A stretch of 64,000 nucleotides of DNA from Umbilicaria muhlenbergii (Eukaryota; Ascomycota; Lecanoromycetes; Umbilicariales; Umbilicariaceae). Where the stretch lies: contig KK106983.1 in assembly GCA_000611775.1 (NCBI GenBank), positions 2,910,808 through 2,974,807 of the forward strand, written 5' to 3'. The notes beneath the pieces are model-generated. The model was not told the origin of the DNA, ran no database searches, and saw only the letters and a list, made by a program, of their open reading frames with translations. This document shows positions 15,101-40,834 of the stretch, piece after piece. The stretch's first letter is position 1. Every line of letters starts with the position of its first letter. A program made the position numbers and the translations under genes.

Positions 15101-15430
15101 AAACATTTATAATATATTCAACATCACTTTATTAAAGTCATTTTGAAGCACATGTCATGTGATTTCTGCATTGACAGGAAAAGACCTACTACTTAATTAA
15201 GATGATGAGTGAGAAGTTGAGACAATTGTTGATAACTGCATTCATGACAGCAGGCTTCAATACCTCATTAAATGAAAGCTGACAGATCAAGTATGAGATG
15301 ACACATAAAAATCAACACATTTCATTCATAATGTAAAGATTAAAATGCAGAAATTTCATGCTGAGAACTTTAACAAGCTGAAATTCAGATAAGCTGTATG
15401 ATGTGAATGTAACTGAAGATCATTTTATTT
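9176..15430 (+). mobile_element. Ty3/Gypsy chromovirus fossil (Gypsy-1)
   Basis: Plus-strand Gypsy remnant with domain order gag-like (about 9880-10440), protease area (about 10900-11400), RT (about 11500-12130), RNase H (about 12600-13020), integrase zinc-binding and core (about 13900-14900) and chromodomain (about 15180-15360). The RT lead-in LPEYHEYTDIF is typical of fungal chromoviruses. A 105-bp duplication (about 12910-13015 repeated at about 13055-13160) and a threefold repeat with period about 115 bp (13390-13650) lie between RNase H and integrase. LTRs could not be fixed; AT-rich stretches at 9176-9480 and 15840-16060 share TATGACAT-like words but do not align convincingly. Heavily decayed. 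Confidence 0.7.
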
Positions 15431-16804
15431 ATATGAAAACTTTATCAACTTTATTCAGCTTGATCTTTTATAATAAAAATGTAGCTGTACTTTATAACAA
15501 AATTATAACAGGAGTTATGACAGTTATGTTACTTCTTATAAGAAACACTACAAGTCATATGTGCATGATATAAATGTTAAAATGAGAAAATAATTTCATT
15601 ATTAATTATTACTTCACTGTCTCATTCTCTTCTTCACTGTTTAATGAAGCCTTTGACCTCATCTTTTTAATGTGATGTTGTTCACAGAGTTCAATATACT
15701 TCTGATGATGATGAAATTGATGAGTGTTAAGGACATGAAGAACATGAGCAGTGTTTTTTAATAAAATAATAAAAGCCTGAATGAGCTCTTTAAAATTACT
15801 GAATTGACACATTTTAACTTTAAGAGAGTCAAGAAACTCATGTTAAGAAGCAGCTGTGAAAAGCATAAAAAGTGTTAATAATGATTAATAAAAGATGACA
15901 GCATGAGGATTTGATGATCAGTTGTTAAATGTTATAATTAATTAACAATGCAAAAGTACAACATAAAGTATGACAAATGTACAACATAAAGTATGACAAA
16001 AGTATGACATAAAGTATGACAATTAATATGACACTTTTTCATACTGAACAAAATAAAAGAGAATTAAGGAAAATAAACTTATGATGTGCTGTCACTCCTC
16101 TGATCATCATAAACATGTACATGCAGGACAACAACATCAGAGCTTTCAGAAATTAAGACAGTGATGATCAGAGACTTCATCATGCATTGATCATGAAAGT
16201 TGCAGAGTGACATGTAATAAATGCAGGCTGAATTAACTTAAGACATGAAGCACTGATTAACCTCAGCTCTTTTACAAGAGTCACAGTGAGTAATATTTAA
16301 TAATGTGTGACTGAGGTTCTTTTAAATTACACACTCATGATGATGAGCCTGCTGCACATGAACTGGCAGTGAGGTATCATCATAACATCATATAAAATGA
16401 TACTCTCTGTCAGAGATGTCATTTAAAGATAAACATTAAGTTTTTTTTAAATATTAAATAAATTATTTCTTCTTTCTGCTTTCTCATCTCTTTCTGAAGA
16501 TGTCAATCATCATGAGCTCACTTATTAATGATGATGCCTCAAAGCTTTTTTCATCACATTAAGCATGAAGACTGACAGGCTTATCTGATGAAGACAAATC
16601 TTCATAAAGTGACTGTTGAGATAAAAGTCTCAGTTCAGAATCATGAAACAGAATGAGATAAAATGAGACATGAAATTAAATAATAATTTTATTTTTTAAA
16701 ATTGAAATAAAAGTTCTGTCTCATTCTGTTTTGTAATTTCAGCAGAATCCTGATCATGTAACTTCTTATATATGACTGTCAGTGGTTTTGAGACACAGGA
16801 AAAG
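15431..16804. other. AT-rich stretch without a recognisable gene
   Basis: Follows the chromodomain and may contain the 3' end of Gypsy-1. It holds a 67-codon minus-strand open frame (15609-15812), rich in His/Lys/Glu (EENETVK end), without a family I recognise. It also holds about three imperfect 21-bp direct repeats built on GTACAACATAAAGTATGACA (15955-16030). Nothing else supported. Confidence 0.4.
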
Positions 16805-17048
16805 GAAAAATGACTTTCAAAATCACTTCAATGATAGCCTCAATGACAGCTTCAAAAAACAGCTTTTAAAACAACTTCAACAACAACCTCAAAAAACAGC
16901 TTTTAAAACAACTTCAACAACAGCCTTAAAAAATGACTTTTAAAACAACTTTAATGACAGTCTTGAAAAATGACTTTCAAAATGACTTCAACAACAGCCT
17001 TAAAAAACAGTTTTCAAAACAGCTTCAATGATGATCATGAAAAATGAT
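16805..17048. repeat. Orphan minisatellite related to the TM array
   Basis: Tandem compound units of about 37-41 bp made of AACAGCTTTTAAAACAACTT and CAACAACAGCCT words, the same vocabulary as the arrays inside TM copies. No TM inverted-repeat ends flank it. It may be a relic of a TM copy that lost its ends, or an independent array. Confidence 0.6.
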
Positions 17049-17275
17049 GTAACAGGTGATGTCATAATGACTGAAGTAATACTGTCATTTATTAAACTGT
17101 TCAGAGTAACTGTCTGAACATAAATCAAACAATTATAAACAGAATTAAAAAATAAAATTAATAGATTACTTTTAATACATGAGTTGAGCATGAGCTCTTA
17201 ATTATGAATCTATCTGTGATTATATAAACTCTAGAAGACTCATGTGATTGAGGTGATTATAATGATTGAATTCTT

Positions 17276-17355
17276 AATCACTTCAAACAGCTCAATCACC
17301 TTGATTGAAGTGATCAAGATGTTTGAGCTCTCATTGACCTTGATCACTTCAATCA
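17276..17355. repeat. Palindrome cluster
   Basis: TGATTGAAGTGATCAAG (17302-17318) and its exact reverse complement (17339-17355) flank a 20-base spacer that contains the palindrome GAGCTC. A related word AATCACTTCAA lies just upstream (17277-17287), so two alternative stems are possible. Function unknown. Confidence 0.6.
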
Positions 17356-17543
17356 GTATCAGCTGTTCACTGCAAGCATGTGTGAGCATTCAGTGTACAA
17401 AACTCATCAGGTGCTAGTTCAGCATAAGAAAAGTTATACTTAACAACAACATGATCTTATGAAGGTAACTTTCATTAGTGAATCAACCTCATAAAAGAGC
17501 TCAGTTAATGAACATCACTTCTGACACTTCATAAAAGTGATCA

Positions 17544-18660
17544 CATCTGCAATTTGACAGCCTGCTCAAAAATAAGATTTTAGTTAATAATACTTTATGT
17601 GCTCAGAGCACTCTCTGAGCAGTAAATGAGCTCATACAAATTTTACACTTTAAATAACTATTATACCTTCATGAATAATAAGAAACTTTTTATTGAAAAG
17701 TTTTAAATCTCTTTATTCTGTACACTTTACAAACTAAAAATTTCTTTATAAGTTTTAATTTACAATAGTTATGAATTAAAAAACTTTTAACTAATTATAA
17801 ATATATTAGCATATTGAATAACTATTGCGCTTTTATACTTATAATATAACTTTCAGTTTATAAGTTGTAGAGAATAAGCTGTTTAAGAGTTTTCTTATAC
17901 AAACTTTCTTTTTATGTGTTGTTGTTGTTGAGTTATTCAAAAAGTCATTAAAAGTCTGTTTATTAATGTTGTAATTTTCGTCACTGAAAGTTTGAAATCA
18001 ATGTAACTTTTAACAACAACAGTTATAAAAAAACTTTAAATTATAAAACTGTTTAATAGCTTCTTCTACAACTTATAAACTGAAAGTTATATCATAAGTA
18101 TAAAAGCGCAACAGTTATTTAAAGTATGTGACTTTTTTTAAAAGATTTCTCGCTATTGAAAACTTGAATTAAATATAACTTAACAACAACAGCAGTTATA
18201 AAGAAACTTTTAATTTAACATTAATAAAAAATACTATTCTTTATAACTTATGCATTGAAAGTTTCTTCATATCTGTTGAGATGCAAAAGTTATTAAAGTG
18301 TGTAAATTTTCAAGTGATGAAAATCTTGAAGTTCTTTAAATATTCAGAACTCAACACTTATACAGTGCTTTCAGACTCAACAAATCATGATTTTTTATTG
18401 CAGAAAAGTGAATTTTAGCAAAAGTTTACTTATTATAAGTTTTACTGTTATTATAACACTGTGTGTGTACTTGTTTAAACAATTGTTTTAATAATTGTTT
18501 TTTTATCACAAAATTTTGATGTTCTGCTCAAGATTTAAGGTTAAGCTCAAAGTGCTCAGAGGGTGCTAAGAGCAGCTGTTAACTGAGACATGAGATCAAA
18601 AGCTCAGAGCACTCAAAGTGCTAAAAATTAACTCAGAGTTAACTTGTTAAATTGCTGATG
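17544..18660. mobile_element. FB element copy 1: 1.1-kb non-autonomous inverted-repeat element
   Basis: Aligns end to end with 34067-35187. Termini are CATCTGCAATTTGACA and, read inward from the other end, CATCAGCAATTTAACA, i.e. imperfect terminal inverted repeats of about 16 bp. Inside are inverted arms of about 70 bp (about 17817-17886 and 18049-18124, with GCGCTTTTATACTTAT and its complement) and two direct copies of an AACAACAACAG/GTTATAAA block (about 18000-18040 and 18165-18220). No coding capacity. It lies just before the protease area of Gypsy-2. This copy has fewer CpG and more TpG/CpA than its sister, so it is the more mutated one. Class is uncertain: foldback-like or MITE. Confidence 0.75.
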
Positions 18661-21331
18661 ATCTGAAACCTGTTCCTCTTTTCAAGCTCAAGAAGATACA
18701 TGACTTTGATGATGAGTTCTTTAAGCTTAAAATAATTCACGTCATCTACTCAGGTCTGCTTGTGAAGGAGAAGTATAAAGAGATTATCATTCTTATGTTA
18801 ATAATTAACTTGAGGCAGCATGACATTATCTTGAGGAAGTCATGAATGAACTGAAATTAATTAATGTTAAATATGAAAGATGACTTCATCATCTTCTTGA
18901 ATAAACTCAAACAATTGAGATCATCATTAACAGAAGTTTCAGCTCCTTCACAGAATAATTCATCTTTTTATCAACATCTTTTCACTTCATCTTCTCTTCT
19001 TTAAACACTTCTTTAAACACCTCTTCAAACTGTTCATACAATATTTAAAATCCTGCTTCAACTTTTCTTGATTACTGATGATAACATGTTCTCTGTCTGC
19101 AGTGTGAGAGCAGCTTCATATGCAGTGTTAATTCATTAAGAGAAGGTACACATATTCATCATGTTAATGAAGAACATAAATAAACAACTAACATTAAATT
19201 GAGAGTGTTGTTCAGAGGAAATAAATCTTAAAGTGAATGTCTTTGAACATTTTAAGAAGATTCATCAACAGTTTTCTGCTGAATATCATGAGTACCTTGA
19301 TGTCTTTGACTGCTCTCAGGTCAGCAAGCTCTCACCTTAAAATTAAACTTATCATATGTCACTCTACAAGCTTCAGAAGGTTAAGAAATATCTTAATGAA
19401 AATCTCTTTAAAAACTTCATTATCTTCAGTAAAGCAGTCTACTCCTCTTCAGTGTTGTTCGCTTAAAAGGTTAATGAAGACCTCAGGTTTTATGTGAATT
19501 ATCAGAAGCTTAATGCTCTCACAAAATAAAACTGATCTTTTTCATTAATAAGAGAGGTTATTGAAAAGATTTTAAAATGCAAACATCTTATTAAGCTCAA
19601 CATTATCACCACCTTCAATAAGTTATATATGCATTCAGATAGTGAGGATTTTATGATCTTTATTACAGCTCTGAGCTTTTACACATATAAAGTGTTATCA
19701 TTTGAACTGATCAACAGGCTGAGCACTTTTCAGTAATACATTAATGACATTTTATAAGATTTTCTTAATGACTTCTGTTAAGCATACTTGAACAATATCT
19801 TGATCTATAGCAAGATTAAAAAGGAGCATTAAATTCATATTAAAAAAAGTTTTAAATGTCTTCATGAAACTGACTTACAAGTTGATATTAAGAAATGTAA
19901 ATTTAATGTCTCTGAGACAGTCTTCCTGAGTGTCATTGTCTCAGGAGAAGGACTTTGTATGAACTTTTAAAAAATAAAAGCAGTCATAAACTGAGTTAAG
20001 TTAATCAACCTCAAAGAGATTCAGGACTTCATTGACTTTGTTAATTTTTACTGTTGATTCATATCAAACTTCTTTAAAATCATCAAACCTCTCATTGCTC
20101 TTATTAAGAAAGAAGTTTCATTCACATGAATTAATGACTGCACAAAGGCTTTCAAAAGCCTCAAACAGGTCATGACAGAAGTCTCAGTATTAAGACATTT
20201 CAACTTTAACTGTCAAGTCATACTAAAGACAGATGCTTTCAACTTTATGATAAATAAAATCCTCTCTCAATATGATGATGAAGAAGTTCTTCACTCAGTG
20301 ATCTTCTACAACAAGAGCATGATCTCAGCAGAGTGCAATTATCACATTTATGATAAAAAACTTCTGATCATTATTCATTATTTCAAACACTGATGTCCTG
20401 AACTCAAACACACTGACTTACTCATACAAGTTTTCACTGATCATCAAGCTTTGAAGATCTTTATGAAAAACAAGAAGCTGACATGTCAACAAGCCTGTTA
20501 TTTAAACACACTTTTAAGGTTCAACTTTTAAGTTATCTTCTGATCTGACAAGATGAATGACAAGGCTGATGCTCTTACATGAATACTCAACATCAAGGAG
20601 AAGAATCATGCTTATTAATTCATTCTTACCTCAGATCATGTAGAAATAAGTGTGAGAGAAGTGAAAGAAAATCTTATTAAACAGGTATTCACTGTTACTC
20701 AGGAACAAGTTAATCAGAATGTTAAATAAGATCTTTAAATTAATAAGAACTTTCACTTTTCAGTGACTTCACTCTCACCTTTTTACCTTAATAAAGGCCT
20801 TCATCCTCACATTATTATCTATGAATTCACACGTGAGCAACTTCAGTCAGTGAAGGTGAAGAACATAACAACTCACATGCAAGAAATTCTGAATTTTGAT
20901 AAACAGCAGTTGAAAAAGAGCAAGGAATTTACAAAAGTGCAAGCAGATAAACATCAAAAGAGTGTCAACATGAAGAACATGATATGACTGTCAGGCTGTA
21001 ATATTAAGATCACATGATCAGACTGTGATTTGAAAGACAAGCAGCAGAGATCACTTCACATCAATTAACACATGAGAACATCATATCATTTGAAATTACA
21101 TGTTATCATGAGGATTCACAATCAAACATCTCCTTCAGCATCAATCATCATCAATGACAAGAAACACTGAGAGGTAGATAATACCTCAATAAGTCACATT
21201 AAATTTAAACTGTTCAGGAATCATTCAGAGTGACTGTTTGAACTGTTCAAAGCAGCTGAGCAAGAATGTCACATTTTGATGTTATTTTTACAGCAGTATC
21301 ATAAATGATACTTTTTTAGAAAGGGAGGTAA
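18661..21331 (+). mobile_element. Ty3/Gypsy fossil without integrase core (Gypsy-2)
   Basis: Plus-strand remnant. Protease area 18661-18850; RT about 19250-19850 (AYLNNILIYSKIKKEH); RNase H about 20040-20570, with a clear segment at 20172-20393 (SAECNYHIYDKKLLIIIH). The frame then passes at about 20760-20985 into the segment usually found C-terminal to the integrase core (PFYLNKGLHPH), so most of the integrase is absent. A purine tract (AAAGGGAGG, 21320-21328) precedes an LTR start at 21332. Gag is not seen; FB copy 1 lies directly upstream. Broken, with many breaks and an internal deletion. Confidence 0.7.
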
Positions 21332-21502
21332 TGTTAAAAGCATGATAAGATTAAATAACTTACATTAACTTCTGATTGAGTTTAGCGTGTTCAGTTAATT
21401 CTGCAACACTCACATATGTAGTTTTGCTCATCATTTAATGACTCTTTAAAATTAATCTCTTGATCATCATATCTGCATGATGAGCTCTGCATGATCCTGA
21501 TA
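21332..21502 (+). repeat. Probable 3' LTR start of Gypsy-2
   Basis: Begins TGTTAAAAGCATGA directly after the purine tract. Sequence from 21503 on belongs to the neighbouring minus-strand Gypsy, so the LTR end is unclear and may be cut off. No matching 5' copy was found. Confidence 0.45.
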
Positions 21503-24300
21503 TGTTGTAATATTAACATGTTAATCAGTTAGTTCTTTAGTTCATTAAAGGCTTGAAGACACTGTTTAATTTATATATTAAAAAGTATGTTCTTGCCTGT
21601 CAGTCTGATTAAGAGCTTTGTGATTTTGAAATATTTCTTTATGAATTGTCAGTAAAAGTTACAAAACTTAAGAATATCTGCAGCTGTTTTAAGTTAATTG
21701 ATACCTCTTAAGTCTTAATGACTGTGATTTTTTCAGGATTCACTTGAATGTCATGACATCTTATAATCAGTTTTAAGTATTGAGTTTTAATCTTGTGAAA
21801 TTCACACTTCTTGATTTCAGTTTATAAGTTTGTCTTTCTCAGTCATTCTAGAACAGTTCAGACATGAGTTTAATGTTCAGATAAAAACTTTAAATAAATG
21901 AGGATATCATTTAAATATGTTGTACAACATGTATTCAATAAATCAAATAATACATCATTAATGAAGTGCTGAAAGGTGACTGATTCATTAATAAGTCTGA
22001 AAGGCAAGATCTTATATTTATAAAAATCATGCTTTATTTGAAAGATTGTCAGGTCTTCAGATTCAAAATTCATTTATATATGATGAAATGCCTGTTATAT
22101 ATTAATCTTGATGAAGTATTTTGTTTTTAAAATCTGAGTCAGGATTTTCTTAATTAAAGATAATGAGTATCAGTCTTTCTTCATAATTGAATTCAGCTTT
22201 CAGTAGTTGATGCATAATCATAAAGACCTGTCTTTTTTTCATATAAACAAAATCAATGAAGTTACTGATGATTAACTGACTTCAATGAAATTTTTTTATA
22301 AGTTGTTTTTTATGTAGTTCTTCACTGCTATCAGTTCCTCATGTGACATATTATAAAAGAGTATATATTTAAGCTTTTACTCACCTTTTAAGATGATCTT
22401 GTGATCATAAAGTTAATGTGAAGGGAGTTCATTTGCAGTCTTTTTAAAAAAGACATTAATCAAGTCATGATATTCAGAAGAGAGAATCACCTTGATATTT
22501 AATTCATTTAATTTTAATTCAGAGTTCAATGCTTCCTCAATTTGTTAAATAAAGATAATAAAGATTTTATTACCTTTTTTCATATTTAATGTGAACAGTG
22601 CTGCATCAATCATCTTGATATTAACTGCATGTGAGGGGTTATTATCTTTTGATGCAGAGACTGATTCAGAATCTGCTTTTGTAATGAATTTCTTCAAGAT
22701 CTGATAAGTTTTCAGCAGTTCAAATTCAATTGTTCAATTCATTCATTCATTCAATGTTCAGTCCTTCAGTTCAGTTCATTCAATTAAATTAATTTATTTA
22801 TTCATTCAGTTCTTCAGTTCAGTTCATTCATTCATTCAGTTGTTCAGTTGTTTAATTTGTTTATTCAGTGAGAAAACCACTACTTAGTTTGCAGAGTTAA
22901 TTAAAATTCAGATGTGATTCATTCAAGAGAGTCTCAGTATAATGTTAAAATCTTTCATGTCTACAATCATCATGAGAGTGAGTCACTGAGAATGATCACA
23001 AATCTTTATAATTAAATAAATTACATGTGTAACTCATCTCACTGTCTTCTTCTGAAAATCATGTAAAGTTCAGAGCTTTGACAATGATACTGTCTTAATT
23101 TTAAATCATTCAATCAGAGTCTTTGCCAGGTTAACATTAATGAATGCATATTCAATTGATTCAATATTAAGTAGAGCTTTGACTTGTAACTTGACTTCAT
23201 TTAAAGTGAGCTTGCAATTCACTTTGAATGATGTTCAAGTGAACAGAATGTCTTCACTGATCATTAATACTGATATTATAAGAGAATTATCATCATTCTT
23301 TATCATGACTTTAATAGAGAAACGCCTTTTCCTGAGTTTAATTTAAAATCAGAATTGAAATTAAATATGATTTATTATATACATCTTGATGCTGAAGTCT
23401 CTTTCTTTTTATTTTTATTGAAACAGTTTAAGGTGAGGTGTTCTTGTTTATTATATTTAAAACATTATTCATTCTTCATCTGTTGTTCTTTGACAGCGTC
23501 TGAGTGTGATGTTCAGTTCAGTGTTCAGGGACTTGACTCAGTGATCATTCAAGTAGTTAATTTTAAGATCTTAATAAAACATTCAGTCCTTGTATGAGTT
23601 TAACTTGTGAAGAGGGGTGTTTAATTCAGTTAAAATCTGCTGATCTTCTTTGCATCAAGCAGTCATAAGGTTTAATCAATTCACTGACAGTGCTTAATGA
23701 GTTCATAAAGGTTTTCAAGTCTGTCATCATTAATGTTTAACTGTTGTTGAATTCTGTTGTTAACTTAGTTCAGAAGTTCTCCTATTCAGTATAAATTAAA
23801 AAACTCATTCAGTTCAGTAACATATCACTGAAAATCAGCTCAGAAGAATGAGAAGTCTTTGAATTCTTAATAAAGTTTACAGAATTCATTAATGATGATA
23901 TGTTTTCAATCTGAGTCTTCATAGATCTGTGTCAAATGTTTTAATAATTCAGTAACATTTAAATAAGCTGTTCAGGATGCTGAATTTATTTAAAGTCTTA
24001 TGTGTTTAACAGGATCACCTTCAACTCTTGTTTTCATGTATGTTATTTTCATCTGTTCAGTGAGGTATTATTCATTCATTGTTAATAAGTAGTTTCTGAT
24101 CTTCACTACTCATTCATCATATTTTGAACAGTCACTGAAGAACATTAATGAATTAAGAAGTTTTAATAATCTTGATGATCTTTCAACTGTGAGTTGAGGA
24201 AAATCAGGTCAGGAGGTGTTTATAAAAATGATTATAATTCTTTATTCAAGATATGTTATCACATCAGCTTGTTTAATAACTTTCTTCTTCAATTCCTTTA

Positions 24301-25240
24301 TGCTGCATCATGAGTTGAGTTTGGGTTGGGTTTTGACTATTGTAACTCAACTCAGACTTAGTTGGGTTTTTTTTAAGTTGAGTCACACTGAGTTGAGTTT
24401 TTTTGAGTTTGAGTTGAGTTTTCACTGAGTAACTCAGTTCAAGTTCATGTATATGACTCATTCAAACAGCTTTCAAAACAGCTTTTAAAACAGCTTTGAT
24501 GAGGGTCTTGAAAAACAGCCTTTTAAAACAGCCTTGAAAAATGACCTTGAAAAACAGCTTTCAAAACAGCTTCAATGACAGCCTCAAACAACAGCTTTTA
24601 AAACAACTTTCAAAACAGCTTTGAGGACAGCCTTGAAAAACAGTCTTAAAAAACAGCCTCAAACAACTGCTTTTAAAACATCTTTCAAAACAGCCTCAGA
24701 AAACAGCTTTCAAAGTGACTTTCAAAACAACTTTCAAAATGACTTCAACAACAGCCTTAAAAAACAGCTTTCAAAGTGACTTTCAAAACAACTTTCAAAA
24801 TGACTTCAACAACAGCCTTAAAAAACAGCTTTCAAAGTGACTTTCAAAACAACTTTCAAAATGACTTCAACAACAGCCTTAAAAAACAGCTTTCAAAGTG
24901 ACTTTCAAAACAACTTTCAAAATGACTTCAACAACAGCCTTAAAAAACAGCTTTCAAAGTGACTTTCAAAACAGCTTTCAAAATGACTTTGATGACAGCC
25001 TTGAAAAATGACCTTGAAAACAACTTAAGAAGACACCTTTTGAACTGACTTTCTTAATTATCATAAAGACTATTATAACTATTTGTATGTATTAAGTTAA
25101 CTCAGAATTTTCTGAGTTTAAGTTAAATGAGTTGAGTTTTTTCTGAGTTGAGTTTTGACATGTATAACTCACCTCAAAACTCAACTTAAACTCAACTTAA
25201 ACTCAAACTCACTGAGTAAAACTTAACTCATGATGCAGTG
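24301..25240 (+). mobile_element. TM element copy D, complete
   Basis: Starts TGCTGCATCATGAGTTGAG, ends AACTCATGATGCAGTG, and is flanked by TA at 24299-24300 and 25241-25242. Left-end domain about 24301-24470, minisatellite about 24470-25020, right-end domain about 25020-25240. Four near-identical 61-bp units occupy 24701-24944. The end domains carry many GAGTTGAGTTT repeats. No open frame of note. It is inserted in the gag region of Gypsy-3. Confidence 0.85.
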
Positions 25241-25692
25241 TAAATTTCTTGTTCTTATTCTTCATTTTTTCATAGTCTGCTTGAAGTTCTTCATGTGCTT
25301 TTATAATGATGTTGATTTCATTCAGGGACTGCTCATGATTGATGATTAATTATCAGAGAGTAATCATTGCTTCAAAGGAATGTTTTTATAAGAGATTAAT
25401 TAAAGTCTCTGCAGTCAAAGTAATCAAGATCTGATTAATCAGGTTTTTGTTTAAAATGAGTTATTTATCATTTGCAGAAGTCAACAAAGACTCTTTAATT
25501 CATGAGTAAACTTCACTACTAATTTCTCTGATCATCATGATTAATTTTTAAGTTTTTGTACCTGATTTTAATTTTGATTTTAATTTTAATTCTGATTCTG
25601 ATTCTGATTCTGATTCTGATTCAATTTCAATCTGATTCAGAATTCATTCAGGATGCCTTATGACAGAAGATAAAGAAAAAAAACTAAAATAA

Positions 25693-25954
25693 TATTAAGA
25701 TTATACAAATTATGAATCAATGCATGTGTTTTAACAGTTGACATTTAACTACAGAGAAGAATTCTAGTTTAAGAAGCAAAAGGAAGAAAGAGCATGAAGA
25801 TTAAAATCTTTATATGCATGTTAAACTCATTAATTTAATCACTGTTAACTCATTCAGTCATTCAGTGTTAACTCATTCAGTCATTTGATTCAGCACATTA
25901 TTCAGATCATTCAGATCATTTAGTTCAATTTAATGTTCAAGTGTAAACCTAATA
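25693..25954 (-). repeat. 5' LTR of Gypsy-3
   Basis: Reverse complement of the 252-bp LTRs at 40583-40834 and 33866-34066 plus 35190-35240, with a small extra CATTCAGT-type repeat that makes it 262 bp. Gag follows downstream on the minus strand after a (GATTCT)n low-complexity stretch at 25590-25621. Confidence 0.7.
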
Positions 25955-27422
25955 ATAATAAATTTCTGTTGATGTGCTTTTAATTTGTTATTAAATTATA
26001 TCTTCAATTCTTGTGAGATTATCTGAGAATGTGATAAAATTCTTTTATTAATAAAAAATATGAAATACTTTCTTATAAACTTTTATAAAGTTAATTTTAT
26101 ACTTCAGTGCTTACTTCTCTACTTGCTTAATTATTGTATTAATAGTAATTTTTAAGACTTTAAGTTCTTCTTAATACTTTAAAATATTTATCACTCACTG
26201 CAAAATCTTCTGCACTACTTGATAAATTTCATTAAAGATATTTAAGTCAGTGATAATTAAAATACTCATTGCTTAATTTATCTTTTTATTTTATTATTTG
26301 AGAAATTTTACTGATGATGTTGTTATGAACTTTTTTTTTATTTTAATCAATTTTTCAATTTTACTTCTAATGAAGTTTTTATTTTTTTTAAAATCTTTAT
26401 TATTTTTTTCCTCAATTAATATTATCTGTGTTGCACATAAAGTTTTTTCTTTAAGTGCATGTGAATATTATTTTAAGTCTTGTTTTTCACTCAGGTAAGT
26501 AAAGCATTCATCATTATAATAAACAATTTATAATATAATATTATGTAGTGTTTCTTTTAACTCACTGATTAATTATATAACTTGAAAGTGTTTTAATATA
26601 ATTTTAATATGCTTTCTTAAAAAACAATTATATTTGCTTTAACTTGTGATAATTCTCTGATAAAGTGTTTTATTTTATCATAATTATAACATTTTTTTTA
26701 TCTTTCTTGAAATTCTTCAATTGTGTCATGTCAATTTTTATCAGCTTTAAATTATAATATGATTTCTTAAAAGAGTGTTTTTTATGATAATATTTCTTAT
26801 AAATCTTTTTTATAATAATTACATTGAAATGTTTTTTCTTTTTTAATTATTACTTATACTGATAATTATTAATATGTATCACTTAATTAATTATTACTTT
26901 TAAATCTTTCAGTTACTTTAAGTATGTGACTTTATTTTTCACTTCTTCTTTTAATTTTTAATAAAATTAAGAGGTGAGGGTACTGTCTTTTTAATTAATT
27001 AACATGACAATATGACAAAACATCACTGCATATTTAATGATAAACTCTTTTTAAGTGAAATGATGTAACTGCCTTTTTATAATATGTTTTTTGTTGATGT
27101 TTTTAAATACTCTTATTATCATATTCTTGAAAGTTTTTAAAAATTTAAATATTTTATTAATTTCATCTTCTCATTCTGATAAGTCACTGTTGAGATAATT
27201 TTTCAAGTGTAATTTTATTCAGGTAAAAACTTTATTATAAAAATATATAATAACATAAAAAATCTTATCAGACTCTGCTGTAAATTAAGTATTATTAAAT
27301 TAAATATATAAATTAACTTAAAGGAAATATACTTGAAGCTTGATTTATTTTCTCTTAAAAAGATTAAGTAAGATTATCTTTAATAATTTTATAATAACTG
27401 TGTTAAAGATAAATATCAGCTG
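25955..27422. other. Very AT-rich spacer, nothing recognised
   Basis: Long T-rich and TTATTA-rich stretches with no domain, repeat partner in the window, or structured RNA that I can support. Short open frames here are composition artefacts. It is the original surroundings of the nested element that starts at 27428. Confidence 0.5.
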
Positions 27423-27427
27423 CTTTT

Positions 27428-27572
27428 TATTATGATTTTATCAGAGCCTCACCTCCTCTTATCTTACTTAATGTAGCTTAATGACTTATCTTAGCTTAAA
27501 GTAGCTTAATGAAGTCAGCATAAAAGCTGACTTCTTAATAAATAAAATATGACATCTTTATCACTCACAACA
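27428..27572 (+). repeat. 5' LTR of Gypsy-4
   Basis: 145 bp, ends TCACTCACAACA, mirrored at its start. Shares long exact blocks with 42949-43093, for example TCTTACTTAATGTAGCTTAA. CTTTT lies directly outside it. Confidence 0.85.
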
Positions 27573-30500
27573 AAAATGATAACAACATCATCATAAATGA
27601 TCATTAAGGCATCATAAACTGCTTTAACAGTTAAGTCTTCTTATTTAGCATCAGTTTTAATAAAGTTTTAACTTTATCATGTAAATCATTAATCTGATGT
27701 TCATGTCAGACACTAACTGACTGGCTTTAAATCAAGTTATGATAGCACTCAGTTATCAACTTCAAGACTTCATCAACTTAAATTATTATTAAGCTGAAGA
27801 TATCTCAATCATCAGAAAACAAGTCATAACCTGTGTTGTTCAAGAAAACACCAGATCAGCAGATGCTCAATTAAAGAAATTCAGTTAATTCATCAGAGCA
27901 GGATCTTGAGAATTTCTCATTTTATTATTTAAGTAAATCATAAATAAATCACAGTTAAATCATGATATCTGCAAGCTTTTAAAAGTTATTTTAGCTGCTG
28001 CATCCTCTCATACACAACATCAGAGCTCATGAGAATGTGAATGTCATTTTTTAATAAAACATCATCCTGACTCCTCTACTCATAACTCATTCATGTCAAG
28101 ATCATTCAATGAGCTTATCACTTAATAAATCATAAGTGAAACTGAGTCAATACATAATGAATGAAGGTTATTTCATGATTCAGGCATGATAAACAATGAT
28201 GAAGGAATCTCTTAAGAAGAGATGCAGCAACTTATTCAAGTTAACATTCAAGCAGCAGTAACAACAGTCATGATCAATATACAAGCAAGCTCACAAGACT
28301 CATCAGAATCATTAAGTGAAGCTGAACCTCTTAACTTTATTAATTCAGTAAGTGATGAAATCAGAAGTAACTCAGCATTCAGGCTCTGAGATATCAATTA
28401 CTTTGATCTTAATTCAAATGTTAAATCAGTTGAAGTCAAGGAGAATCATTAAATCTATCATAATGTGTTCAACTTCATCAATCATTTACATGTTAAAGCA
28501 CTCATCATGAATGCAGCTTTGTTTAAACAAAACCTGAATGCATGCCTGTTAAGAAAGATGAACATCTGATATATAAAGAAACTCACTCACCTTTTTCATA
28601 TAAGCTTGAGGAACAACAACAATGAGGTATTTGAATGATGTAATGCCTTGAAAGTCAGATTTTAAAATAACTTCAGTAGAGTCTTAACAGCTTTAAAGGC
28701 TTTACAGTACACTGTTCAGAATATTAAACATCATCAAGATTCAACCTTTTATATACAGTTCATCATTCTACATGAGAAGAATGCTGAAATCATCACAATA
28801 AAGGCAGCTTAGGTTTTAATCACTTATAAGCATTTAAATGCTGAGCTACACTTACACCTACCTCATCTTACATTAAACTTTATCATAGCGACCCTTATTG
28901 AGGACGTCAATTATCAGAAAGATATTTAATTTAACATGTACATCAAAGATTAAAAGTTTAGCCATGATAATATCTTCAATGATTGATGAGAACGCCGGCC
29001 AGTTAATTAACAAGATAAGCAACATTTTAATCATTCATCTCAATTTTAATTTCAAGGAAATAATTGTTCTCTGTTTTTTAATGCTGATTATTCTGTTAAT
29101 AACCTGTCCTTTCATAATGCTGAGTGATTTAATAAAGGATATGATCATTATCCTGCATATCAAGATCAGAGAAATTCTAACAATGCATAAGCACAAGATC
29201 AAACCACAGTCATACTTCAGCTTAAAAAGATACATCAATCACTCATGATCACAAATGAAAATGAAAAACCATTCACTGATGTAGATTAATCACTGAATTA
29301 AAACACTGAAAACAAGAACCTTTTTCAGCACTGACAGCTTAATCATTCTTGAGCTTATCATGAAGAGCCTGATGAAGATGATCAAGCAGCTTATCAAGAG
29401 TGAGAAGATGATTTTTATAAACAGACTTATCAGCAAGGTGCTGAGAATGCTTACATATTAAGTTTTCATGAATATAATAAGCAAGACAGTCAAGCCGTGA
29501 AAGAATTAAAAGGGGAATCAGAAAATTTAAATATAAATCATTATACATTCTTTTTCTTCTGCTGAAACTGTCATGAGGAATTCTGATTAAACAATAAACT
29601 GCATAAGCATATCTGAAAAGGCTGTCTATCAGCAGTCAATCATAAGTTTATTAAGAACTCACTCAATCATCTTATTATAATGAGCTCAATCAAGCTAAAG
29701 CAGCTTATGCAGGGATACACTTTTCAGGATTGATGATATATCACAGTAAAGATGAGATTCAGTGAAAAGCTGAATACACTCACAGAGTCAGTCTGCATTG
29801 ATAGTAGATACATTATGAGCATCATTAACAAGCAGTTCTTTCACAGATTAACCTTGAATGAGATTCACAAGATGAAGTGAACAGCATCATTAATCTTAAT
29901 TCACAGCCTTAAGATTGCAACTCATCAAGTAAATGAATATGTCACTCTGAATATTTACCTCTCAGGCACTGACAGCAGGACAGTTCACATCAGTGATGAA
30001 TTTCACTTAATTAACAACCTCAAAGCAAACATGCTTTTTGAGATGAATATACTGACAGCAGAGAAGATCACAGTCAAGCTGTGATTAAAAAACTTAATGA
30101 CTGTGATAAAAAACTGTCAAAATATCATCATTCTGCTACATGTAACAACTAAATTTAACGCTTGAATGAATAAAACAGTGACATTTAATGAGTACATTGT
30201 GATTTCATCACAGGCTCAAATTGCAGTACTCATTACACTGTTTCATGAAATTGAGCTCTTCAAGGACAGGGACCTCTTATTTAAACTGAATAATATCAAT
30301 ATTAAACTCATGATGTATGCTCACATCATCAATCATGTGATGTCTGAAGTACTGATTTACAATGAGTCTGAAAAGCCTGTAGTTCTACCTCAGAAGACTC
30401 ATCTAGATCAGGTAATAAAATATAAAGCAAACAGCTGTTACTCAGTTCACTTGAACATCTTAATGCTTGTTACTCAGAAGACCTGCTCAAGAGATAATGA

Positions 30501-33500
30501 GAACTGAGCATGCTGAAGTTTTTAAAACATTTTAACTGCAGTCACAGCATTCAATATAGTCATGAACAGCTTATTCACAGGAAACTTTTCATTTTCATCA
30601 TAATCATCTGCAGAGAGCCTGCTACTGAATGAAATCATTATGTGTGATGATGTGAGCATCATGTACTGAATTACTGAAGTCATCAATCAATACCTTCAGC
30701 TATGAGAAGATCAAGGCAACATCATTAATGTTTTAAAATTAAAGTGAATGAACATATTACTTCTTAATAACTGAAGAGAGCTTTACAAGGCTGAGTAAGT
30801 CAAGATATACTCATTAAGAAAGCAAGACAAGAAGTTTATTAATAAAATATTCAATATACTACATGTTGAAGATCATCTGAAATGAGTGTTAATCATCATC
30901 TCATTCACATACCCTTGTTTCATCATGTGAAGAGATACTCAAGAAGGCTGTAAAAAAAGAATGATCATGAATATATGAACTTTAAATAAAATAATGATGT
31001 CAGATGTTTACTCAGTGTCATCTCAAGCTGAAATCCTCACAGCAGTACATGAGTTCAATTACATATCAACAGTAGACTGCAGCAGCTTCTTTCATCAATG
31101 AAGGATAAAATTAAAGACATGTCACAAGCTTATCATGTCCTCTCACTGAGGCCAGGAAGTATTTAAAGTGATGATGATGAAATATAAAAACTCATCAGCT
31201 TATGTACAAAGAATGATAAACAAAGTTCTTTAAGAGCAACACAAATTCACATGAGTTTATGTAAATGACATTATTATATTCTTCAACATGTTAAATGAGC
31301 ACCTGCATCACCTAAATAATGTATTCAGGGTGTTAATGAAGAAGAATATTTATCTCTCTCTTAAGAAATCATTTCTTAATTATTCCTCAGTAAAGCTCCT
31401 TGATCAGAGAGTTAATGCTCTGAGACTGATCACAGCAGCAGAGAAACTTGCAGTCATAACATGTTTAAAATTCTTAAGATCACTGAGCGCTCTTGAGAAA
31501 TACCTTGATCTTATCAGGTATCTTCAATAGTATATATTAAAATATACAGTTATTTCAAAGTCACTTCAGGAACAGAAAACACTGCTAAATAAAATCATTA
31601 AAAAGTGATCAAGTAAGTTAATTAAAAGCATAATGAAAAAAAAGATCATTAAAAGAGTAAAGATAAACATGTCAACTTCATGAGAGCTTCAAGCATTCAA
31701 TTAATTGCAAATAATGTTCTTCAGATTAATTATATTAACACACTTTAACTTAACCTGTCAGCTGTATGTTGACTTAAATGTGTTAAAAGAATTCAGGTTC
31801 AGTGCTCACATGTATCACTGTTGAAGTAATGATGAAATCAAGGGAGAATCAGCTTCAGAGGTGAAATAAAAGAACATGAAGCTTATATGTTTCCTCAGCA
31901 GGCTGTTAACAGATGTGAAGATTAAGTACTGACTCACAGAACTGAAAGTGACAGGTTTAATATAAGTTGTTCAAAAAATATGACACATGATTGAATCAAC
32001 AGTCAAAGTGACAATCATATACACTGATCACTCAGTCATGATCAACATTGTATGTCAGTCAAGCTTATTAATGACTTCAACTGAGAAGATGAACCTACAC
32101 TTTATTTGAGCATTTAAATACTTTCAACACTTTCACCTCAACATTCACTACAAGCCTGATAAATTCAATGTTATACCAGACGCGTTGTCAAGATTAGCAG
32201 GGTAAAACTATCATCAAGAATCAGATACATCAACACTTAACACTTTTTATACAACTTTAATTTATAACAATGACCCGGCTGTGTACCTGATATCATTAAT
32301 GAAGCTGAATGCAGAGTTTCAAAAACACCTGATGAATAAATACACTCAGAACATTCAATGAATTAAAGTCAAGATCATGATAAAGGTGAACATTAAATTA
32401 AAAGAGAATGTCATGACTTTATCATATAAGTTGATAAACAGGCTAATATATTACAAGAACTTGAAATGCAGTCTTCAACTGAATATCTCAACAGTAAAAG
32501 ACTTGAAAAAAGAGTTATTTCAGCAAGCACATGATGAGTTAAGTCACTCAGAGTACATGAGAACACATGAGCATTTAACAGAAGAATTATACTTCTTTAA
32601 TCTTTCAAAGAAAGTTCATGAGTTTATTCATTCATACTCTTAATGTCAGCTCTGTCAAACACTCAAGCATAAATCATACAGTGCTCTTCAATTAATTCTG
32701 ATGCTTTCACATCTTTTTCATATCATTTTATTAAACTTTATACTGAGACTGCCTGTAACACCTCTGCTGAAAGAATATGACTGCATAATGTCTTTAACAG
32801 ACAAATTCAGCAAAGTGGTAAGCTTTATCCCCGGCAAAATCACATGAAAGAATACACAATGAGTCATAAAGTTTCTCAACTGTTTAACTCTTATGAACTA
32901 AAGCTTTTTCATGATAATCCTGACAGATAAGGACCTGAAATTCATGACAGAAATGTAAAAGAGCATCTTTAAGCAATTGAAAGTTAAATCATTACTTTCA
33001 ACAACATATCACCCTCAGACAGATGATAACTCTGAAATTATAAATTAAACAGCAGAAATCACTCTATAATATTTCCTGATGACATTAAAGAACATCAGCA
33101 GTTGAGTCATAATATTATCAAAAATGCAAGCAGCTCTGAACAACTTTATGAAGTATTTCAACATCATTAAAACCTCAACTGAAGTCCTTTATAAATTCTG
33201 AATCAGAGAAGCACTCAACCTTTTATAAGTTAATAAAAACAGTGAGCCTACAAATGAAACAACTTTAAGAGATATTCAAGATGTTAATCTCACAAACTTA
33301 ATGACAGTAATGATGAAATACAGATCAACAGCAGTTAATGTAAAAAACATCATTATCTTTACTGTCATACACATGAAGAAGTATTATGACAGCAGGCATA
33401 CATCAAAATTCTTTAAGATCAGTGACATGATCAACTTATAATTGCACTGAGGATATATTATATCAAGCATTCAGAACAAGAAGATTAAACAGCAGTTTAT

Positions 33501-34066
33501 GAACTCATTTAAAATCATCAAGAGAATTAAATGCTTGACTTATAAATTAAATCTCCCCTCTCATTGATGAATTCATGACATCATATCAATAGCTCACCTG
33601 AAAAGTGCAATCACAGTTGACTCATATAATCAGCTAAGGTCAAATCATCTGCTGTCAGTGATGATGAACAGTGATTTAAATCATTATGAAATTAAATGCC
33701 TGCTCAAGAAGAAAACAAGATGCTTTAAACATAATGACTGCAAAATAATCACTGAATACTTTATATGATGAAAAGGCTACAGCTCTGAACATGATGTATG
33801 ATACAATATTAAGAATCTGAGAAGTGCAAGAAATCTCATAAAAGCATATAATGATGCACACATGATGTCAGGTTTATGCTTGAATGTTAAACTGAACTGA
33901 ATGATCTAAATAATACTGAACTGAATGACTGAACAGGTTAGCATTGAATGACTGAACAGATTAACAGTGATTGAATTAATGAATTTAACATGCATATAAA
34001 AGCTTTGTTCTTCATGCTCTTTTTTTCTTTCACTTCTTAGATTAGAATTCTCTTCTGTAGTTAAAT

Positions 34067-35187
34067 CATCCGCAACTTGGCAGCCCGCTCAAAAATAAGG
34101 TTTTAGTTAATAGTACTTTATGCGCTCAGAGCACTCTCTGAGCAGTAAATGAGCTCATACAAATCTTACACTTTAAATGACTATTATACCTTCATGAATA
34201 ATAAAAAACTTTTTATTGAAAAGTTTTAGATCTCTTTATTCTGTACACTTTACAAACTAAAGATTTCTTCATAAGTTTTAATTTGCAATAGTTATGAATT
34301 AAAAAACTTTTAACTAATTATAAATATATTAGCATATTAAATAACTATTGCGCTTTTATACTTATGATATAACTTTCAATTTATAAGTTGTAGAGAATAA
34401 GCTGTTTAAGAGTTTTCTTATACAAAGTTTCTTTTTATGTGTTGTTGTGGTTGAGTTATTCAAAAAGTCATTAAAAGTCAGTTTATTAATGTTGTGATTT
34501 TCATCACTGAAAGCTTGAAATCAATGTAACTTTTTAACAACAACAGTTATAAAAAAACTTTAAGTTATAAAACTGTTAAATAGCTTCTTCTCTACAACTT
34601 ATAAACTAAAAGTTATATCATAAGTATAAAAGCGCAATAGTTATTCAAAGTATGTGACTTTTTTTAAAAGATTTCTCGCTATTGAAAACTTGAATTAAAT
34701 ATAACTTAACAACAACAGCAGTTATAAAGAAACTTTTAATTTAACATTAATAAAGAATACTATTTTTTATAATTTATGCATTGAAAGTTTCATCATATCT
34801 GTTGAGGTGCAAAAGTTATTAAAGTGTGTAAATTTTTAAGAGGCGAAAATCTTGAAGTTCTTTAAATATTCAGAACTCAACACTTATACAGTGCTTTCAG
34901 ACTCAACAAATCATGATTTTTGATTGCAGAAAAGTGAATTTTAGCAAAAGTTTACTTATTATAAGTTTTACTGTTATTATAACACTGTGTGTGTACTTGT
35001 TTAAACAATTGTTTTAATAATTGTTTTTTTTATCACAAAATTTTGATGTTCTGCTCAAGATTTAAGGTTGAGCTCAAAGCGCTCAGAGGCTGCTAAGAGC
35101 GGCTGTTAGCTGAGACATGAGATCAGAAGCTCAGAGCGCTCAAAGTGCTAAAAACTAACTCAGAGCTAACTTGCTAAATTGCTGATG
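34067..35187. mobile_element. FB element copy 2, inserted in the 5' LTR of Gypsy-5
   Basis: 1121 bp from CATCCGCAACTTGGCA to the inverted end TTGCTGATG. The undisturbed site is visible in the 3' LTR near 40773, so the insertion point and the 2-bp AT duplication (34065-34066 and 35188-35189) can be read directly. It has the same inverted arms and direct repeats as copy 1, but retains more CpG (AGAGCGCTC, AGAGCGGCTG), so it is less mutated or younger. No open frame of note. Confidence 0.85.
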
Positions 35188-38100
35188 ATGTCAGCCTGTT
35201 AAAACACATGCATTGATTCATAATCTGCATAATTTTAATATTATTTTAATCTCTTCTTTTATCTCCTGTTGCAAGGCACCCTGAACAAATTTGAAATTAA
35301 ATTGAAACTGAATCAGAATCAGAATCAGAATCAGAATTAAAAATTAATCATAATGATTAAAGAATCTGATAACATAATTTATTCATGAATTAAAGAGTCT
35401 TTATTAACTTCTGTGAATGATGAACAATTCTTCATCTTGAATGAAAATCTGATTGATCAGATCCTGACAGCTTCAACTGCAGAGACTTTAATTAATCTCT
35501 TACAGAAACATCTCTCTGAAGCAATGACTGCTCTTTAATAATTAATCACTGATCATGAGCAGTCTTTGAATAAAATCAACATCATTATAAAGGCACAAGA
35601 AGAACTTCAAGCAGATTATGAAGAAATGAAGAATAAGAATAAAAAACTGAAGAAGAAAGTTACTGAATAAGCTGATGTGATAATATACTTTAAATGAAGA
35701 ATCATAATCATCTTCATAAGCACTCTTCAACCTGATTTCCCTTAACTCATAATTGAAGGATTATTCAGCTTTAAATTATTAAAGCTCTCTGATTCACTGA
35801 TGTTCTTCAGTGATCATTTAAAATACAACAAATGAGTAGTGAAGATCAGAAACTACTTATTAACAATGAATGAATAATACCTCACTGAACAGATGAAAAT
35901 AACATATGTGAAAATCAGAGTTGAGGGTGACTCTGTCAAGCACATAAGGTTTTAAATGAATTCAGCATCTTAAACAGTTTATTTAAATGTTATTAAACTG
36001 CTAGAACATTTAACCTGAATCTACAGAAACTCTGATTAAAAATGTATCATCATAGATGAATTCTGTAAACTTTATTAAGAATTCAAAGACTTCTCATTCT
36101 TCTGAGCTGATTTTCAGTGATATGTTACTGAATTAAATGAGTTTCTTGATTCATACTGAATAGGAGAACTTCTGAACAAGGTGAACAACATTATTCAATG
36201 ATAATTAAACACTGACAATGATAAACCTGAAGATCTTTATGAACTCATCAAGCACTGTCAGTGAATTGATCAGACCTTATGACTGCTTGATGCAAAGAAA
36301 ATCATTAAATTGAATCAGACACCCCTCTCTGCAAGTTAAACTCATATAAGGATTGAATGTTTTATTGAGATCTCAAGATCAACTACTTGAACAATCACTG
36401 AGTCAATTCCCTGAACTGAATGAATGAACTGAACGTCACACTCAGACGTCATCAAAGAACAACAGATGAAGAAAGGATGTTGTTTTAAATATAATGAACA
36501 AAAGCACCTTGCCTTAAACTGTCTGAACAAAAAGAAAGAGACTTCAGCATCAAGATGCATGTAATAAATCATATCTGATTCTGATTCTGATTTTAAATCA
36601 GATTCAGGAAAAGGTGTTCTTTTATTAAAGTCATGATAAGAAATGATGATAATCCTCTTGTGATATCAACACTGATGATTAATGAAAACATGCTGTTCAT
36701 CTGAACACTGTTTGAAGTGAATTGTAAGCTCACTCTGAATGAGGTTAAGCTATGAGCCAAGGCTCTACTTGATATTGAGTCAATTGAATATGCATTCATT
36801 AATGCTAACCTGACAAAGACTCTGATTGAATGATCTGAAATTAAGGCAGTGTCATTGTCAAAGCCTTGAACTCTACATGATTTTCAAAAGAAGACAGTGA
36901 GATGAGTTACACATGTGATTTATTCAACATTAAAGATTTGCAGTCATTCTCAGTGACTCACCCTCATGATGATTGTAAACATGAAAAATTATAACATTAT
37001 ATTAAGACTTCTTTGAATGAATCACACCTGAATTTTAATTGATCCTGTAAACTGAGTAGTGGTTTTCTCACTGAATGAATGAACTGAACAACTGAAGAAC
37101 TGAATGAACAAATGAATGAAATTAAACAAACAAACTGAACTGAAAGACTGAACACTGAATGAATGAACAAACTGAATAATTGAATCTGAATCACTGAAAA
37201 ACTTATCAGATCTTGAAGAAATTCATTTTAAAAGCAGATCCTGAACCAGCAGTTAATATTAAAATGATTAATACAGCACTGTTCACATTAAATATGAAGA
37301 AACATAATGAAATCTTTGTTATTTCTATTTAACAGATTGAGGAAGCATTGAACTTTAAATTAAAATTAAGTGAATTAAATATCAAGGTGATTCTCCCTTT
37401 CAAATATCATGACTTGATTGACATCTTTTTTAAAAAAACTGTAAATGAACTCCCTCTGCATTGACTTTATGATCACAAGATTATCTTAAAAGGTGAGCAA
37501 AAACTTAAGTATACACCTCTTTACAATATGTCACATGAGGAACTGGTAGCGGTGAAGAACTACATAAAAGACAACTTATAAAAAAGTTTCATTGAAGTCA
37601 GTCAATCATCAGTAGCCTCACTGATTCTGTTCATACAAAAGAAAGACAAGTTGTTATGATTATGTGTCAACTACTGAAAGCTGAATTTAATTATGAAGAA
37701 AGACTGATACTCATTATCTTTAATTGAGGAGACCCTGACTCAGATTTTAAAGATAAAATACTTCATCAAGATCAATATACAACAAGCATTTCACTGCATA
37801 TGAATGAATCTTGAATCTGAAGACCTGATAACTTTTCAAACAAGGCATGATTTTTACAAATATAAGATCTTGCCTTTCAGACTCACAAATGAATCAGTCA
37901 CCTTTCAGCACTTCATTAATGATGTATTATTTAATTTATTGAACACATGCTGTACAGCATATTTAAATGATATTCTCATCTATTCAGAGTTCTTATCTGA
38001 ACACTGAACTCATGTCTGAATCATTTTAGAATGACTGAGAAAGGCAAACTTACAAGCTGAAATCAAGAAGTGTGAATTTCACAAGACTGAAACTCAATAC

Positions 38101-40582: not shown

Positions 40583-40834
40583 TGTCAAGTTTACATCTGA
40601 ACATTAAATTGAACTGAATGATCTGAATGATACTGAACTGAATGACTAAACAGGTTAGCGTTAAATGACTGAACAGATTAACAGTGATTGAATTAATGAA
40701 TTTAATGTGCACATAAAGATTTTATTCTTCATGCTCTTTCTTTTTTTCACTTCTTAGATTAAAATTCTCTTCTGTAGCTAAATGTTAATCTGTTAAAACA
40801 CATGCATTAATTCATAATCTGCATAGTCTTGACA
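40583..40834 (+). repeat. 3' LTR of Gypsy-5 (also the empty site for FB)
   Basis: 252 bp, starts TGTCAAGTTTACATC after a purine tract and ends CATAGTCTTGACA. Its length equals that of the 5' LTR once the FB element is subtracted (201 + 51). Confidence 0.85.

Follow-up and report, generated by a model that had tools for sequence, protein, structure and literature searches.

Among the defences by which cells mutate their own repeats, repeat-induced point mutation (RIP) is known best. To our knowledge, it is still open how the methyltransferase-like protein of RIP converts C into T. Here, we report on the decay of repeats in a stretch of 64,000 nt from Umbilicaria muhlenbergii (G000:C3:2910808-2974807, called the window in the following; genome of 34,788,950 bases in 7 contigs), which carries two copies of a repeat family named FB. 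Together with loci fetched from the rest of the assembly, about 0.3 Mb of the 34.8 Mb were sampled, mostly picked around FB copies and reverse-transcriptase (RT) matches. As judged from comparisons of repeat copies, the repeats probably decay by an active, RIP-like conversion of C to T that is aimed at an unusual three-base target, i.e., the cytosine together with the two bases 3' of it (positions +1 and +2).

As far as the excerpts of the papers cited here and below go, RIP of Neurospora favours CpA (PMC12543289, PMC4352252), and a CpA preference common to RIP-like defences is the conclusion of a 2025 k-mer survey of 1,239 fungi (PMC12543289). Like RIP of Neurospora crassa, the decay studied here comprises C-to-T changes on both strands and leaves AT-rich relics, and within the sample it appears to affect repeats and to spare a mostly single-copy island; RID-, DIM-2- and Pre-SET (DIM-5-like) genes are present in the genome. 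Unlike it, CpG and CpC are hot while CpA and CpT are cold, and two dinucleotide indices leave the resulting DNA unflagged. A trinucleotide target is shared with the TpCpG hypermutation of Microbotryum (Pucciniomycotina; PMC5381629), but there a T in front of the cytosine (-1=T) marks the mutated C, whereas here it is +2=A, with -1=T being coldest at CpG. The CpG-biased decay of Tuber melanosporum and Coccidioides is similar in that CpG leads among the dinucleotides in an ascomycete. For Tuber, a CpG signature as well as RID, DIM-2 and DNMT5 are reported (PMC4352252, PMC7862722) and methylation similar to that induced premeiotically (MIP) is favoured (PMC4165359); for Coccidioides, the CpG bias is a remark in PMC4014442. 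In contrast to our data, the respective excerpts mention neither a +2 rule nor a CpC excess. The MIP of Ascobolus immersus likewise relates a Masc1/RID-class enzyme (Masc1) to repeats, but it methylates without mutating (PMC4352252), whereas the DNA studied here is mutated. Furthermore, three basidiomycetes with a CpG signature alone had no RID-class gene (PMC4352252).

Within the window, dinucleotide counts give an observed/expected ratio for CpG of 0.06 on both sides of positions 43650-47340 and of 0.80 within them. Left and right of this island, the respective values are 1.45 and 1.38 for CpA/TpG and 0.44 and 0.47 for CpC/GpG. The original prediction, made from the letters of the window, had described CpG as nearly absent outside the island with plenty of CpA and TpG, which is what we find.

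The target can be read from copies of copia-type elements. From 55 matches to the copia RT domain (Pfam RVT_2), 20 were fetched, of which two (L056, L062) were excluded as unrelated, while the remaining 18 fall into a family of 13 and another of 5 copies. For the 13-copy family, word-wise mutation rates were computed using the copy with the fewest mutations for the sequence context. CGA (0.73, 122/167) and CCA (0.72, 164/228) are highest, followed by CGG (0.49, 53/108), CCG (0.44, 48/108), CTA (0.31, 63/204) and CGT (0.20). Lower rates are found for CCT (0.15), CAC (0.12), CAA (0.08, 27/336), CTG (0.08), CCC and CGC (0.07 each), and the lowest for CAG (0.03, 5/168), CAT (0.03), CTC (0.02) and CTT (0.01, 3/275). 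That is, 10 of the 14 C words besides CGA and CCA are mutated at 1-15%. In the 5-copy family, which was evaluated with two references, the respective rates are 0.61/0.65 for CGA, 0.46/0.50 for CCA, 0.40/0.35 for CGT, 0.21/0.22 for CTA, 0.20/0.12 for CGG and 0.12/0.14 for CAA. Over four reference copies from both families, words with +2=A have a mean rate of 0.33-0.40 and those with any other +2 base of 0.04-0.21. When the 13-copy family is evaluated per site, the mean is 0.40 for +2=A (n=78) vs. 0.11 for the rest (n=191; p=5e-11), while the per-site means by -1 base range from 0.14 to 0.24. Among four single comparisons at an early stage of decay, CGA ranks first in three and second in one.

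Transversions are scarce in the 13-copy family, i.e., its 78 pairs differ by 4083 transitions and 48 transversions (85:1), with the latter confined to 4 columns. Relative to reference L061 and with 3-bp ends omitted, we count 634 C>T/G>A changes, 34 in the reverse direction and 4 transversions; with the ends kept the relation is 670:28, where 24 of the 28 fall into two end columns. The copies were mutated at differing sites, since the number of other copies with a T at a given reference-C site varies from 0 to all 12.

This spectrum bears on passive decay of 5-methylcytosine, in which DNMT5 and SRA-domain proteins would methylate CpG in repeats and DIM-2 would methylate elsewhere, followed by slow deamination of the methylated C to T. 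The genome has a DNMT5-like gene, three SRA-domain loci and a DIM-2-like gene, no other dinucleotide is as depleted as CpG, and fungal CpG signatures are ascribed to methylation and deamination in PMC4352252. The 5-copy family with 557 transitions and 98 transversions might also be reachable this way. The 4083:48 relation of the 13-copy family fits poorly, given that the mitotic transition/transversion ratio in H3K9me3 domains of Neurospora is 0.93 (PMC10234303). Moreover, CCA, which holds no CpG, is mutated nearly as often as CGA in both families (0.72 vs. 0.73 and 0.46-0.50 vs. 0.61-0.65, respectively).

A further discrimination comes from the two strands of CpG sites, for which both RT families were pooled. 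The C of CGA (-1 not T) is mutated in 113 of 135 cases (0.84), while the C of TCG (+2 not A), i.e., the situation on the opposite strand of CGA sites, is mutated in 11 of 131 (0.08); TCGA is intermediate (47/94). Competition for the first hit enlarges this contrast but should not create it. Since symmetric CpG methylation predicts equal decay of both strands, the inequality, together with the excess of transitions, makes passive decay of symmetrically methylated CpG a poor explanation. We thus regard it as unlikely, and the 'mutation of methylated CpN' offered by the original prediction is disfavoured as the main cause, although methylation may still play some part.

The same counts concern a CpG-biased, RIP-like mutation lacking any +2 rule, as known from Pucciniomycotina (TpCpG) or from Tuber and Coccidioides (CpG). 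It would account for CpG being the top dinucleotide, and composition alone is unable to separate it from a +2 rule at CpG, since CGA reads TCG on the other strand. The direct comparisons, on the other hand, put the change on the C of CGA and not on that of TCG (113/135 vs. 11/131), and the effect of +2=A extends to CCA, CTA and, for the most part, CAA, i.e., to words without this strand ambiguity. We therefore consider it very improbable. By -1 base, the CpG rates are 0.39 (A), 0.34 (C), 0.11 (G) and 0.08 (T). A TpCpG model, in which T at -1 marks the mutated CpG, was rejected based on the 11/131 for -1=T without +2=A.

For further repeats, the sequences of the window and of the fetched loci were compared all-vs-all, with non-FB pairs binned by identity. 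Their transition/transversion ratio is 8.7 at 80-85%, 11.1 at 85-90% and 47 at 90-95% identity (94:2, two pairs), lower (1.7-3.4) in the classes from 65 to 80%, and the lone pair of 95-100% has 15 transitions and 2 transversions. The fractions of C/T differences in the 80-95% classes are 0.81-1.0 for CpG, 0.41-0.50 for CpC, 0.23-0.32 for CpT and 0.18-0.28 for CpA. For context statistics, we used 35 non-overlapping non-FB pairs of >=78% identity (40,832 aligned bases; flanks identical in both copies), which comprise 5362 transitions and 718 transversions. An excess of C-to-T changes, as used to recognise RIP, is thus found here (5362:718) as well as in the 13-copy (4083:48) and 5-copy (557:98) families. 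Stratified by +1, the odds ratio of +2=A is 4.35 (bootstrap 3.31-5.43), with the same direction in all 35 pairs, and it is 3.98 for the 23 pairs without window DNA. Relative to A at +1, the odds ratios are 4.54 for G, 2.86 for C and 2.04 for T. Respective fractions are 0.41 for CAA vs. 0.05, 0.12 and 0.19 for CAG, CAC and CAT; 0.61 for CTA vs. 0.21-0.26 for the other CTN words; and 0.71 for CCA vs. 0.20-0.39 for the other CCN words. The canonical CpA preference is absent, i.e., the per-site rate of CpA stays below those of CpG and CpC throughout. CpA is coldest in the 80-95% classes, in the 35 pairs and for references L061 and L074, and CpT is coldest in FB and for references L058 and L060.

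We also studied what this decay leaves behind. In a pool of AT-rich DNA (135,175 bases), with expectations from a first-order Markov model, the observed/expected ratios are 0.03 for CGA, 0.09 for CCA, 0.27 for CTA and 0.66 for CAA, while all other twelve CNN words reach at least 1.0; the respective counts are 5 for CGA and 132 for CCA, next to 2526 for CCT. A GC-normal control (31,276 bases; two of nine random places omitted as AT-rich) shows all sixteen CNN words at 0.91-1.10 of expectation. Forward simulations from GC-normal sequence were compared with the observed trinucleotides via the Kullback-Leibler (KL) divergence, which is 0.1285 without context, 0.0818 if just +2 is considered, 0.0453 if just +1 is considered and 0.0051 with both. 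A dinucleotide-only model was hence dismissed as inadequate (0.0453 vs. 0.0051 if 16 rates cover +1 and +2). Expressed as multiples of the mean over the non-A words, the fitted rates are 29 (CGA), 6.9 (CCA), 2.6 (CTA) and 0.67 (CAA), and the word with +2=A is hottest inside each of the four CpN classes. Composition is unable to separate CAG from CTG and CCG from CGG, since they are reverse complements of each other.

These fits matter for a mixture, in which RIP-type mutation of all CpN would be joined by a separate decay of methylated CpG that produces the CpG excess. All four CpN contexts are indeed mutated to some degree and both enzyme sets are present. Still, a mixture is quite unlikely, given that +2=A is hottest in all four classes of the composition fit and, for the 35 pairs, in CA, CC and CT though not in CG, and that CpA-first rates yield the opposite composition (loss 2.32 vs. 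0.005).

In the RIP-like mutagenesis that we favour, the target would be chosen by the two bases 3' of the C, with G or C preferred over T and A at +1 and A far preferred over the rest at +2. CGA and CCA would be the preferred words, followed by the other CpG words, CCG and CTA, while CAG, CAT, CTC and CTT would be nearly immune at first. Mutation would differ from copy to copy, affect both strands and go on until CGA, CCA and most CpG have disappeared, and the end state would be AT-rich DNA full of CAG, CAT, CTG and CTT. Since the residue is rich in these words, counting dinucleotides gives the impression of 'CpG/CpC lost, CpA spared'. With regard to the RIP variant considered in the original prediction, the bulk of C-to-T changes, their location in repeats, the differences between copies and the RID-, DIM-2- and DNMT5-like genes speak for it, while the rule it was given (CpG and CpC but not CpA) appears as a shadow of the +2 rule.

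If CGA and CCA are the preferred targets, mutation is expected to create TGA stops (from CGA, and from TGG via the other strand) and few TAG stops. This expectation was formed after the +2 effect had been seen and before the stop searches, without being recorded beforehand. The RVT_2 matches (55, all above the family cut-off; two free of stops) contain 231 TGA, 97 TAA and 4 TAG in frame, and the 41 rve matches, three of which reach the cut-off, contain 89, 18 and 3, respectively, where these counts include stops shared among related copies. When distinct places are counted, the 18 fetched copies have 16 TGA, 8 TAA and 2 TAG. Sister copies have CGA, TGG or CAA at many of the TGA places, and both TGA and CAA are found at the same codon place in different copies. 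Other stops are common to all copies; for 38 of the 81 TGA cells of the 13-copy family, the stop is present in every copy.

The usual dinucleotide indices of RIP miss the decay in the window. The cut-offs are a product index above 1.1 with a substrate index below 0.9, a combination found in none of the 59 one-kb windows outside 43001-48000. Among the same windows, TpA/ApT >=0.89 with (CpA+TpG)/(ApC+GpT) <=1.03, values taken from PMC6180176, is found in one (medians 0.73 and 1.59). The index-based survey PMC7882544 uses still stricter cut-offs of 1.15 and 0.75.

The FB family displays the +2 rule poorly, since it has just one CGA and one CCA column. Its two copies within the window, FB1 and FB2, are identical at 1069 of 1117 aligned bases, with 40 transitions and 8 transversions among the 48 differences. 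They thus differ mainly by transitions, as had been predicted; the accompanying claim that CpA words stay does not hold, because the next base at the 40 C/T differences is T in 17, A in 11, G in 8 and C in 4 cases. The words quoted in its support, CAGAGCAC and AACAACAACAG, contain CAG and CAC, both cold in the repeat pairs, along with CAA, for which this is not the case. Dozens of places carry FB, which is a lower bound (best 40 of 311 candidates scored). From 39 extracted copies, three diverged ones were removed and the commonest base per column of the remaining 36 served as reference. C>T changes per cell amount to 14.1% for CpG (70/495), 10.3% for CpC (33/319), 3.3% for CpA (140/4191) and 2.7% for CpT (129/4816), compared to 0.10-0.92% for the reverse direction. 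A dominance of CpA-to-TpA, named beforehand as evidence against CpA being spared, is therefore seen in the raw counts, where CpA is the top class (140/372), but not per site, where it is next to last and near CpT. Judged by transversions per base, the age of FB (0.0069) lies between those of the younger 13-copy copia family (0.0009) and the older 5-copy family (0.0160); its C>T load is far below that of both RT families despite this intermediate level.

FB may be a non-autonomous DNA element. Its left end is CATCnGCAAy or near it in 24 of the 39 copies, which is the inverse of the right end ATTGCTGATG, and different in 14 of the 39. At five fetched loci (L016, L020, L026, L029, L039), copies form adjacent inverted pairs.

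A search for RID, DIM-2 and other C5-methyltransferases retrieved RID-, DIM-2- and DNMT5-like genes. In detail, profile matches to PF00145 lie at four places, which hold one DIM-2-like, one RID/Masc1-like and one DNMT5-like gene as well as a fragment, likewise DNMT5-like, that contains a stop; the class names are assigned from motifs. The DIM-2-like gene combines the methylase with DUF7893, and its BAH match is slightly below the cut-off. The RID/Masc1-like match (L010; E 3.1e-28) covers residues 501-660 of a 662-aa open stretch. The fragment (L012, G000:C1:6525876-6529178) is a broken second copy that shares 79% identity with the DNMT5-like gene of L011 along 947 bases. The genome further has a Pre-SET (DIM-5-like) gene and three loci with an SRA domain, and the only link to a sexual cycle found in it is a mating-type alpha-box gene. 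Taken together, these genes point to a filamentous ascomycete; a 5.8S rRNA was searched for in the assembly but not found. The enzyme set is not unusual, since RID, DIM-2 and DNMT5 co-occur in Cryphonectria, Uncinocarpus, Tuber and Ascobolus, for which the trio is tabulated in the excerpt of PMC7862722. In the RIP-like mutagenesis proposed here, the RID/Masc1-like protein (or DIM-2) would make the changes, presumably before meiosis, and the +2 preference would be its own.

Several observations weigh against this interpretation. With respect to the target rule, CAC exceeds CAA in the 13-copy family for one reference (0.12 vs. 0.08), CTA is unmutated (0/13) in one early-stage comparison, and the +2 order after A is unsettled (G>T in the 13-copy, T>G in the 5-copy family). 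Within FB, CAT (6.5%) exceeds CAA (3.0%). At CpG, -1=G is cold as well (14/128), so the -1 base has some effect. For the 35 pairs, CGA (0.53, 10/19) is not above CGC (0.55, 22/40) and CGT (0.56, 15/27), because CpG words, CGA included, are nearly exhausted there. Regional mutation load inflates certain contrasts between copies with respect to +2; that of A vs. T, which is less exposed to it, still amounts to a factor of 1.8-2.3 at CA, CC and CT.

Other such observations concern the process. The older 5-copy family has a transition/transversion ratio of just 5.7:1. A strand-run test for mutation tracts was not positive (142 copy tests, mean z of -0.53, one above 2 and 14 below -2). FB is lightly mutated for a 1.1 kb repeat (mean of 10.7 C>T per copy), which may be due to its shortness or its scarcity of CGA and CCA. 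No clear RIP signature was found between the DNMT5-like fragment and its intact relative over their 947 bp (68 C>T/G>A vs. 53 reverse changes). The RID-like match contains a TAA, which looks like part of a short intron. Repeat status is demonstrated for part of the AT-rich DNA only. Finally, the ancestral composition of the simulations is a guess, and the four-rate fit worsens if the island is taken as ancestor (loss 0.094 vs. 0.005).

The features of the window are collected in Table 1. The island is mostly single-copy in the sample and rich in CGA compared to the AT-rich blocks; its middle matches only itself among the best 40 scored of 70 candidates. Its right edge, without CpG and CGA yet with some CpC and CCA, fits certain words being lost first. 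GC-normal DNA like that of the control was found at 7 of 9 random 2-kb places, the other two being AT-rich and CpG-poor.

Table 1. Coordinates of features within the window (positions relative to its first base)
Feature	Position	Strand	Remarks
AT-rich decayed DNA	1..43500		CpG obs/exp 0.06; CGA 0-0.1 per kb outside FB copies
Two RVT_2 remnants	3489..4201	-	G000:C3:2914296-2914616 and 2914568-2915008; jointly 4 TGA, 6 TAA, 0 TAG in frame
Direct repeat copy 1	8033..9135	+	84% identity to 11774-12859
Direct repeat copy 2	11774..12859	+	partner of 8033-9135
FB copy 1 (FB1)	17544..18660	+	~1.1 kb repeat, 25% GC; among 36 close copies counted
Inverted repeat arm 1	21663..24170	+	three blocks, 84-88% complementary to 35775-38214
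FB copy 2 (FB2)	34067..35187	+	27% GC; 40 transitions, 8 transversions vs. copy 1
Inverted repeat arm 2	35775..38214	-	partner of 21663-24170
Undecayed island	43650..47340		GC ~46%, CpG obs/exp 0.8, CGA 20.8 per kb
Island right edge	47400..48000		no CpG, no CGA; CCA (8.3 per kb) and CpC partly kept
AT-rich decayed DNA	48000..64000		CGA 0.0, CCA 0.6 per kb
Copia-type RT remnant (RVT_2)	51229..51930	-	G000:C3:2962036-2962737; 5 TGA, 7 TAA, 0 TAG in frame
Pol_BBD domain in open stretch	53380..53892	-	

The island holds protein-kinase pieces in two open stretches (45218-46037) and, near its ends, two short repeats of ~150-200 bp (43700-43855, 46608-46803), neither of which is AT-rich there. Repeat 46608-46803 matches at least 35 further places at 76-97% identity, of which 261-468 and 7398-7604 belong to the AT-rich part of the window. 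Minisatellite-like blocks at 24300-25240 and 61900-62890 are related to each other as well as to the first 1.6 kb of the window, with a spacing of 61 bp at 24670-25152; six-frame reading reveals long repeated peptides at 62079-62512. The lowest GC content of any 2-kb bin is found at 26001-28000 (21.8%, zero CpG).

Among the matches listed from the RIP and trinucleotide literature searched, which leaves out most subscription journals, none was seen to name a three-base rule involving the +2 position 3' of the C, and neither do the excerpts of PMC10234303, PMC13207899 and PMC6180176 name one. Of these matches, PMC5381629 is the only fungal repeat-mutation paper with CpGpA/CpCpA, where, in its excerpt, CpGpA is the complement of TpCpG.

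On balance, we lean towards the idea that the RIP mutator of this lineage reads C-[G/C]-A via contacts two bases 3' of the C, which would be a near inverse of CpA-directed RIP, make TGA from CGA and TGG codons and go unseen by the indices. Heavy RIP-like decay can escape the dinucleotide indices of surveys (e.g., PMC7882544). If the idea holds, fungi rated as RIP-poor by such indices may hide a mutator of this kind, and three-base RIP may in part underlie the 'CpG signatures' of other ascomycetes that have been attributed to decay of methylated DNA. A natural RIP variant with a sharp but different target rule would then provide a direct test of target recognition by RID-like proteins.

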